A program made the position numbers and the translations under genes. A stretch of DNA of 64,000 bases from Isoperla grammatica (taxonomy: Eukaryota; Arthropoda; Insecta; Plecoptera; Perlodidae), in NCBI GenBank assembly GCA_945910005.1, contig OX246739.1, positions 73,729,523 to 73,793,522 on the forward strand, given 5' to 3'. Every line of letters starts with the position of its first letter. Position 1 is the first letter of the stretch. The notes beneath the pieces are model-generated. The model did not search any database. It saw only the letters and a list, made by a program, of their open reading frames with translations, and had not been told where the DNA came from. This document shows positions 17,701 to 49,019 of this stretch, in pieces.

Positions 17701-20700
17701 AACTCGCAGTCGAAGGGCACGTAAACGTCGGAGAAATGTTTCTCCGAGAGGTCTCCAACAAACATCAGCCATCTTGGACGAGAGGGGACCTTTAACATTA
17801 AAAAAAATACAAACAATAAGTTAAGAATTTGATTTTTTTGCCATTAAATTCCACCTATTTGACGTAAGTCTTATAGCCTTTTACTATTGATATTCAAAAG
17901 TGCCCAGTGTTGCCCGGTCATTGGTCAAGATAACGTTGAGTGGGCGACTACCAGTGTCATCTAATATCTCACCTTGCCCAGTGAAGCCAGAGCGCCGCGT
18001 GTTGCCCGGTCGCTGGTCAAGATAACGTTGAGTGGGCGACTACCGGTGTCATCTAATATCTCACCTTGCCCAGTGAAGCCAGAGCGCCGCGTGTTGCCCG
18101 GTCGCTGGTCAAGATAACGTTGAGTGGGCGACTACCAGTGTCATCTAATATCTCACCTTGCCCAGTGAAGCCAGAGCGCCGCGTGTTGCCCGGTCGCTGG
18201 TCAAGATAACGTTGAGTGGGCGACTACCAGTGTCATCTAATATCTCACCTTGCCCAGTGAAGCCAGAGCGCCGCGTGTTGCCCGGTCGCTGGTCAAGATA
18301 ACGTTGAGTGGGCGACTACCAGTGTCATCTAATATCTCACCTTGCCCAGTGAAGCCAGAGCGCCGCGTGTTGCCCGGTCGCTGGTCAAGATAACGTTGAG
18401 TAGGCGACTACCAGTGTCATCTAATATCTCACCTTGCCCAGTGAAGCCAGAGCGCCGCGTGTTGCCCGGTCGCTGGTCAAGATAACGTTGAGTGGGCGAC
18501 TACCAGTGTCATCTAATATCTCACCTTGCCCAGTGAAGCCAGAGCGCCGCGTGTTGCCCGGTCGCTGGTCAAGATAACGTTGAGTGGGCGACTACCAGTG
18601 TCATCTAATATCTCACCTTGCCCAGTGAAGCCAGAGCGCCGCGTGTTGCCCGGCCGCTGGTCAAGATAACGTTGAGTGGGCGACTACCAGTGTCATCTAA
18701 TATCTCACCTTGCCCAGTGAAGCCAGAGCGCCGCGTGTTGCCCGGTCGCTGGTCAAGATAACGTTGAGTGGGCGACTACCAGTGTCATCTAATATCTCAC
18801 CTTGCCCAGTGAAGCCAGAGCGCCGCGTGTTGCCCGGTCGCTGGTCAAGATAACGTTGAGTGGGCGACTACCAGTTTCATCTAATATCTCACCTTGCCCA
18901 GTGAAGCCAGAGCGCCGCGTGTTGCCCGGTCGCTGGTCAAGATAACGTTGAGTGGGCGACTACCAGTGTCATCTAATATCTCACCTTGCCCAGTGAAGCC
19001 AGAGCGCCGCGTGTTAACCGGTCGCTGGTCAAGATAACGTTGAGTGGGCGACTACCAGTGTCATCTAATATCTCACCTTGCCCAGTGAAGCCAGAGCGCT
19101 GCGTGTAGCCCGGTCGCTGGTCAAGATAACGTTGAGTGGGCGACTACCAGTGTCATCTAATATCTCACCTTGCCCAGTGAAGCCAGAGCGCTGCGTGTAG
19201 CCCGGTCGCTGGTCAAGATAACGTTGAGTGGGCGACTACCAGTGTCATCTAATATCTCACCTTGCCCAGTGAAGCCAGAGCGCCGCGTGTTGCCCGGTCG
19301 CTGGTCAAGATAACGTTGAGTGGGCGACAACCAGTGTCATCTAATATCTCACCTTGCCCAGTGAAGCCAGAGCGCCGCGTGTTGCCCGGTCGCTGGTCAA
19401 GATAACGTTGAGTGGGCGACTACCAGTGTCATCTAATATCTCACCTTGCCCAGTGAAGCCAGAGCGCTGCGTGTAGCCCGGTCACTGGTCAAGATAACGT
19501 TGAGTGGGCGACTACAAGTGTCATCTAATATCTCACCTTGCCCAGTGAAGCCAGAGCGCCGCGTGTTGCCCGGTCGCTGGTCAAGATAACGTTGAGTGGG
19601 CGACTACCAGTGTCATCTAATATCTCACCTTGCCCAGTGAAGCCAGAGCGCCGCGTGTTGCCCGGTCGCTGGTCAAGATAACGTTGAGTGGGCGACTACC
19701 AGTGTCATCTAATACCTCACCTTGCCCAGTGAAGCCAGAGCGCCGCGTGTTGCCCGGTCGCTGGTCAAGATAACGTTGAGTGGGCGACTACCAGTGTCAT
19801 CTAATATCTCACCTTGCCCAGTGAAGCCAGAGCGACGCGTGTTGCCCGGTCGCTGGTCAAGATAACGTTGAGTGGGCGACTACCAGTGTCATCTAATATC
19901 CCACCTTGCCCAGTGAAGCCAGAGCGCCGCGTGTTGCCCGGTCGCTGGTCAAGATAACGTTGAGTGGGCGACTACCAGTGTCATCTAATATCTCACCTTG
20001 CCCAGTGAAGCCAGAGCGCCACGTGTTGCCCGGTCGCTGGTCAAGATAACGTTGAGTGGGCGACTACCAGTTTCATCTAATATCTCACCTTGCCCAGTGA
20101 AGCCAGAGCGCCGCGTGTTGCCCGGTCGCTGGTCAAGATAACGTTGAGTGGGCGACTACCAGTGTCATCTAATATCTCACCTTGCCCAGTGAATCCAGAG
20201 CGACGCGTGTTGCCCGGTCGCTGGTCAAGATAACGTTGAGTGGGCGACTACCAGTGTCATCTAATATCTCACCTTGCCCAGTGAAGCCAGAGCGACGCGT
20301 GTTGCCCGGTCGCTGGTCAAGATAACGTTGAGTGGGCGACTACCAGTGTCATCTAATATCTCACCTTGCCCAGTGAAGCCAGAGCGACGCGTGTTGCCCG
20401 GTCGCTGGTCAAGATAACGTTGAGTGGGCGACTACCAGTGTCATCTAATATCCCACCTTGCCCAGTGAAGCCAGAGCGCCGCGTGTTGCCCGGTCGCTGG
20501 TCAAGATAACGTTGAGTGGGCGACTACCAGTGTCATCTAATATCTCACCTTGCCCAGTGAAGCCAGAGCGCCACGTGTTGCCCGGTCGCTGGTCAAGATA
20601 ACGTTGAGTGGGCGACTACCAGTGTCATCTAATATCTCACCTTGCCCAGTGAAGCCAGAGCGCCGCGTGTTGCCCGGTCGCTGGTCAAGATAACGTTGAG

Positions 20701-49019: not shown

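Follow-up and report, generated by a model that had tools for sequence, protein, structure and literature searches.

The receptor gene and its surroundings

The window, by which we mean the whole 64,000-nucleotide stretch of DNA analyzed here (G000:C7:73729523-73793522 in an 874-Mb assembly), carries a receptor gene, gene A, on its minus strand. The eight exons (Table 1) give 655 codons with a single stop, at the end, and the product is matched in Pfam by Lig_chan (1.8e-18) and by IR75A_N (1e-9, residues 50-208, spanning the exon 1-exon 2 junction), so that its sequence predicts an IR75-type receptor. When the 7,997 database candidates sharing most words were scored, just one match reached E <= 1e-10. 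It is 28% identical and comes from a bee, where it is named "probable glutamate receptor"; the alignment is co-linear over exon 1-exon 2 with a 2-residue gap and runs straight over exon 4-exon 5. An earlier note on this DNA had called the gene an IR and had joined exon 1 to exon 2 across the intron that concerns us here. The Pfam domains bear out the identity, and the IR75A_N match across the junction, together with the co-linear bee alignment, supports the predicted join.

Several smaller features lie in or near the gene. Intron 5 apparently opens with GC (GCAAGT, window 11262-11271), as in a GC-AG intron. A frame lesion in exon 6, suspected from the bee homolog, was set aside because the paralogs have a donor at the same position. 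About 13 residues present in the bee homolog are absent between exons 6 and 7 (window 10590-10640, 9978), where a small exon may have been lost or gone unrecognized. Intron 2 contains a pure (CTGT)87 microsatellite (window 17009-17358). WDR83 neighbors the receptor gene, with its best named matches in a stick insect (72%), then a thrips and two cockroaches, which marks the source as an insect, probably a polyneopteran. Repeats of 69 bp with an open frame (ETDEQREARLETVRVHNAQARSC) lie near MLH1 on the + strand (window 1145-1689).

Table 1. Exons of gene A, its arrays and the insert, in window positions
Feature	Positions	Strand	Remarks
Exon 1	48681..49019	-	113 codons; final 76 bp (48681-48756) are array copy one
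92-bp array, exon-proximal block	46322..48756	-	26 full units, one of them the exon's own copy
Foldback-type insert, 5,410 bp	40912..46321	.	inside one 92-bp unit
92-bp array, distal block	17907..40911	-	249 full units and partial edge copies
Exon 2	17496..17789	-	exon of 655-codon model
Exon 3	16047..16150	-	exon of 655-codon model
Exon 4	15369..15542	-	final 70 bp are copy one of the second array
96-bp donor array, 34 units	12186..15438	-	intron 4 of gene A
Exon 5	11272..11501	-	followed by GC donor, GCAAGT
Exon 6	10631..10848	-	array-free in A; 121-bp donor array here in four paralogs
Exon 7	9755..9978	-	exon of 655-codon model
Exon 8 with stop	8358..8742	-	array-free in A; 64-bp acceptor array here in four paralogs

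An array of exon 1 ends in intron 1

Intron 1 of gene A holds an array of 92-bp units, which TRF places at 17907-40912 (250 copies) and 46322-48756 (26.5 copies). Each unit consists of the 3'-most 76 bp of exon 1 followed by the first 16 bp of intron 1, GTGAGATATTAGATGA, and a unit-by-unit walk counts 275 full units, 26 beside exon 1 and 249 past the insert; the makeup of the unit and the copy number of about 275 given in the earlier note are thus both confirmed. The units average 99.0% identity to their consensus, with 110 of the 275 the same as the consensus and 52 distinct sequences in all; 269 are 92 bp long and 6 are 91 bp. Exon 1's own copy does not differ from the consensus. The donor GT is kept in 275/275 units, and the walk found zero variants at donor positions -3 to +2, although a constraint on the donor core inside the arrays is suggestive only, the variant types being too few. 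In the exonic part, variants of 12, 13 and 21 types fall at the three codon positions, which indicates that the copies are without protein constraint. The order of the variants reveals block duplications, of which the longest covers 19 units (11 informative) at a 79-unit lag. The array is thus satellite or minisatellite DNA in the usual sense, that is, long, head-to-tail and nearly identical (275 units, 99.0% identity), and it displays the concerted evolution with block or higher-order duplication that goes with such DNA, in the lag-79 repeats and in the exon 1 identity pattern given below.

The 25 kb of satellite given in the earlier note does not form one run, as the insert splits it into two blocks. 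The insert has a CCGG target duplication, ends TGTaACG/TGTgACG and an interior of inverted halves built of ~141-bp tandem repeats. At 40912-46321, it is separate from the units, which are coding exon plus splice site and do not appear to derive from a mobile element. We found no support for the proposal that a short shared sequence, CACTGGTAG, had set the array boundary: the unique flank at the distal edge (...CTTTTGAAyATCAATA...) is common to genes A, B, C and E, with no second CACTGGTAG in the stretch read. CACTGG as founding microhomology was likewise ruled out, because the distal edge is truncated and is common to paralogs without CACTGG. A reading of the distal-edge bases as a decayed donor was dropped, the alignment being no better than shuffles (p 0.38).

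A second array in intron 4

In the 96-bp unit of intron 4, 70 bp from the end of exon 4 are followed by the donor GTAAGTAA and then by an 18-bp junction filler, CAACAGTCAACAGGTGCC; a search of the window allowing up to 3 mismatches found this filler at no other place. The last copy reads GTAAGTAA followed by GCAGTTC, the form expected from a tandem duplication with filler; alternatively, this copy may be a decayed unit. Treating the distal flank as decayed filler gave p 0.04 in one alignment and p 0.53 in a longer one, which leaves the filler reading likely. In both arrays, reading past the exon-side donor leads to an immediate stop (GTG AGA TAT TAG in the 92-bp array, AAG TAA in the 96-bp array), so that the exon-side donor must serve if protein is made.

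Arrays in four paralogs

We took 200 kb around the C7 matches of the 92-bp unit and beside the window. Among the matches listed (five of six first-look candidates scored), the unit lies elsewhere at C7 places only, and a 92-bp array is present in intron 1 of all five IR75-type genes, A (window) to E. The statement that the unit had expanded only into the intron of its own gene is therefore wrong: it is in four paralogs, and like arrays occur elsewhere, at further splice sites and in different genes. Full units number 275 in A, 12 in B, 84 in C and 68 in E; gene D has ~41 copies in two TRF pieces flanking an inverted piece, and one unit (C7:70956574-70956661) is inverted within its array. The donor GT is intact in 275/275, 12/12, 84/85, 19/19 and 68/68 of the units walked in A to E (for D, the first block only), the sole exception, in gene C, being a truncated edge copy. 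Comparison of the distal edges of A, B, C and E showed the edge to be common to all four, which makes the array older than at least part of the gene duplications. Variants are also common to the arrays, 27 of 105 being present in two or more. Exon 1 compared across the five genes shows 98.6-100% identity in its array part, versus 95.4-96.7% in the remainder.

Other exon edges in these genes have arrays of their own. A 121-bp donor array at exon 6 is present in B, C, D and E, and a 64-bp acceptor array at exon 8 in B, D and E, plus C (2.5 copies); both are absent in A. A 102-bp acceptor array at exon 4 has 253 copies in B, 139 in D and 9 in E and is absent in A and C. Since the exon-4 acceptor of gene C is single-copy, the 102-bp unit can be read as ~20 bp of intron, 60-65 bp of exon and ~18 bp of filler; it is open in frame in gene E, where copies could consequently be translated. 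The 96-bp donor array is absent in genes B-E. The array-free genes thus show the unexpanded state of the exon-4 acceptor (C), of exons 6 and 8 (A) and of the exon-4 donor (B-E). Genes B and C have, in addition, a 157-bp array across the stop codon and 3' end; in gene C (C7:73866785-73868283) it takes in the last codons and the 3' end, an exon edge without a splice site. A TRF rerun at minimum score 50 (first 200) found no added array with period >=40 and >=2.5 copies within the IR75 genes or the MLH1 region, the sole additions there being 83-bp variants inside the MLH1 array described below.

Protein identity to gene A is uneven along the paralogs, at 78-96% for exons 1, 2, 5 and 6 and 35-59% for exons 3, 4, 7 and 8; exon 5 of gene D is lower than in the other paralogs (51-63%, in two pieces). 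This mosaic suggests gene conversion of some exons along with their arrays.

Arrays in unrelated genes

MLH1 (left of the window), identified by Pfam DNA_mis_repair (1.3e-19), has an array of an exon end plus donor with a 128-bp period and ~12 copies, some of its units shortened. A myosin profile search gave at least 85 matches (65 of 153 candidates scored); the seven loci that we examined cover 43 of the 85, and 2 of those 43 are array copies. Two of the seven loci have acceptor arrays, one of 155 bp x 2.8 (C1:25808171-25808607) and one of 58 bp x 2.9 (C5:110014983-110015152). In another myosin gene, a row of repeated exon matches (G000:C1:33475044-33479396, profile ~377-435) looks like a set of alternative exons, presumably resembling those known in fly muscle myosin, and was kept out of the array count. 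A kinesin profile search gave at least 132 matches (122 of 208 scored), and we examined three places with tandem partial exon copies, chosen from the match table: seven acceptors at 152-bp spacing on C15, two copies of an acceptor 161 bp apart on C14, and, on C1, a run of 14 or more donor copies spaced 137-138 bp, up to the edge of the stretch examined. Numerous fragments of the kinesin N terminus (profile 1-94), close to one another in score, also occur on C15 of the same assembly (G000). Often they come as pairs on opposite strands, ~2 kb apart, which gives the appearance of a gene piece that a repeated element has captured. A 10-kb stretch picked regardless of genes (L029) contained no array with a period >=15.

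These loci bear on two simpler explanations. The first, implied by the earlier note, is that the window array is a one-off local satellite of gene A. Its 275 copies do make it the longest 92-bp array found, and among the matches listed the unit is at C7 places only. However, gene A has a second array, in intron 4, and arrays occur at other sites in the four paralogs and in MLH1, the myosins and the kinesins, which leaves a one-off origin highly improbable. The second is an assembly artifact, a natural concern given that 25-kb arrays are difficult to assemble and that the structure was read from the assembly. The 52 distinct units stand in ordered block repeats, though, with a clean transposon-like insertion within one unit; the five paralogs differ in copy number; and short arrays (2-14 copies) in conserved genes pose no assembly difficulty. 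We regard an artifact as extremely improbable.

Site counts and enrichment at splice sites

Altogether, arrays span splice sites at 11 sites in the IR75 genes, MLH1, two myosins and three kinesins. Five are donor sites (the 92-, 96- and 121-bp IR75 arrays, MLH1 and one kinesin) and six are acceptor sites (the 64- and 102-bp IR75 arrays, two myosins and two kinesins); a predicted excess of donors over acceptors thus failed. Unit periods range from 58 to 161 bp, and 8/11 are not multiples of 3. Junction filler is present in at least five arrays: 18 bp in the 96-bp array, 3 in MLH1, 4 in the C5 myosin, ~29 in the C1 myosin and ~18 in the 102-bp array as judged against gene C. The exonic share of the unit at the 11 sites is 50-90% (mean 0.71; p ~0.008 vs uniform placement), a figure that the C1 myosin and all three kinesins bias upward, because profile searches catch only arrays with a long exonic part.

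These counts and periods argue against two ways in which the copies might be of use. Some arrays might be translated or serve as alternative exon ends, as the open frame of the 102-bp unit in gene E would allow. Yet the periods at 8 of the 11 sites would shift the frame, the 96-bp unit stops immediately, and in gene B 253 in-frame copies of 34 codons each would wreck a receptor of ~655 aa; such use is very improbable. Alternatively, the arrays might be kept for function, with donors in intron 1 binding U1 and so blocking premature polyadenylation or boosting transcription, or with a role in regulated splicing. The near-universal donor GT in the walked units of A-E and the lack of variants at -3 to +2 in the window array are what this idea would lead one to expect, but at 99% identity intact donors are expected regardless. 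The 92-bp copy number ranges widely among the paralogs (12 to 275), exonic variants accumulate without coding constraint (12, 13 and 21 types by codon position), and acceptor arrays are no rarer than donor arrays. Retention for function is, in our judgment, decidedly unlikely.

To judge whether splice sites are hit more often than location alone would predict, we used gene A without its arrays, in which 17-18% of randomly placed segments of 92 or 96 bp take in a donor or an acceptor, or ~21% when exon-internal segments are left out as harmful. The IR75, MLH1 and myosin loci hold 13 arrays with a period >=40 bp and >=2.5 copies, an array common to paralogs being counted once, and 8 of these span a splice site versus the 17-21% expected (binomial p 0.0004-0.002; 7/12 and p 0.0015-0.005 minus the discovery array), in a test that is post hoc, with a null from one gene and with IR75 chosen for having an array. 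The five others are the 157-bp 3'-end array, arrays of 119, 142 and 69 bp in the MLH1 region, which we infer to sit in MLH1 introns, and a 78-bp array in a myosin intron. The kinesins, having been found by profile, do not enter the 13, nor do arrays lying beyond these genes or the 141-bp repeats that belong to the insert. Also set aside were a pair of 162 bp x 2.0, a repeat of 55 bp x 2.4 in gene D, weak 37-bp repeats and those variants of the 157-bp array that measure 137 bp x 2.1.

An enrichment of this kind could arise if seeding were coupled to splicing or RNA, through R-loops that form at splice sites or through pieces of pre-mRNA that are reverse-transcribed. The clustering of seeds at splice sites (8/13 arrays, above the location-only expectation) fits such coupling, but the filler DNA at junctions suits ordinary DNA end joining, and exon preference plus selection may be enough. 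We consider RNA-coupled seeding unlikely. As to what favors exon edges, the involvement of both sides (five donors and six acceptors) speaks against a factor peculiar to donors, for example U1 binding.

A proposed origin by splice-masked duplication

We consider it probable that these are splice-masked tandem arrays, in which exon-edge duplications hidden by splicing expand and are homogenized by unequal exchange. The seed would be a small tandem duplication (58-161 bp) at an exon edge that by chance includes one splice site. Error-prone end joining is an established pathway for such events, and we propose it for the seed because several junctions carry short filler DNA; the founding break-repair event would have left the filler-bearing junctions. 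If the exon-side splice site is used, as it presumably is, all further copies would be spliced out as intron and be free of coding constraint. The hidden copies would then multiply by unequal exchange and block duplication, up to 275 copies and 25 kb, expansion by unequal exchange being suggested by the block repeats that we see. Exchange along an array and between paralogs would keep the copies alike and would extend into the coding exon, since the array part of exon 1 is more alike among the five genes (98.6-100%) than the rest (95.4-96.7%). The anatomy of the 11 sites, the lack of an array in some paralogs at four of the five IR75 sites, the block duplications and the homogenization of exon copies are direct observations.

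The broader reading, that a process in this genome makes arrays preferentially at exon edges, is drawn from seven loci, which are the IR75 cluster, MLH1, the two myosin genes and the three kinesin genes and which lie on five contigs (C1, C5, C7, C14 and C15), and we give it a slightly better than even chance. It would imply a genome-wide class, at donors and acceptors alike, in which introns are enlarged outward from the exon and exon ends evolve in concert with their own intron.

Splice-masked duplication would provide a route for intron growth, in which splicing conceals a duplicated exon edge and the concealed copies then act as satellite DNA. The arrays also show a coding exon end in concerted evolution with non-coding copies that total thousands of bases. 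The loci also offer natural tests of splice choice, with some 276 near-identical donors before one acceptor and seven near-identical acceptors before one exon.

Comparison with known systems

Introns can be gained by tandem duplication across AGGT, which places both splice sites in duplicate and makes a new intron. As there, an exon-edge tandem duplication is concealed by splicing here; unlike there, an existing intron is enlarged, and each unit read holds one site of a known junction instead of both a 5' and a 3' splice site. The Drosophila Y genes kl-3 and kl-5 have gigantic introns filled with satellites (PMC6508621) and so resemble the receptor genes in having satellite-filled introns inside functional genes, but in the accessible part of that source the repeats are simple, e.g., (AATAT)n, whereas the monomer here is an exon edge of the gene itself. 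Likewise, earthworm metallothionein has large tandem arrays of minisatellite-sized units in its first intron, although the portion of the account available to us says nothing of a unit made up of exon and splice site (PMC12783039). CeRep25B of Caenorhabditis elegans, a minisatellite near alternative splice regions, is similarly intronic and tied to splicing; it is a 24-base repeat and, as far as the excerpted description goes, is not derived from an exon edge as the units here are (PMC4039745).

In the open-access literature that we searched, we found no paper on acceptor arrays or on a multi-gene class of donor and acceptor arrays up to 25 kb. For donors there is a precedent in human IFI6, where the unit at the exon end is reportedly short, 12 bp. 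The transcript of this gene (6-16/IFI6, G1P3) contains a minisatellite that supplies splice donors (Turri, Cuin, Porter 1995, Nucleic Acids Res 23:1854; cited in PMC2572611, PMC4526556, PMC2915984), and the earlier note's remark that a satellite of this kind is not a described class was too strong, a donor minisatellite being already in print. Judged from what is accessible of that work, the donor arrays are of a kind already known from this one human locus: tandem units lie in the transcript and each gives a splice donor, and in the 92- and 96-bp arrays the array is contiguous with the exon end and has a donor per unit. The IFI6 type, on the same partial sources, is restricted to the donor side of one human locus, whereas here 6 of the 11 sites are acceptors, the units are 58-161 bp long, and the arrays reach up to 275 copies and occur in several genes.
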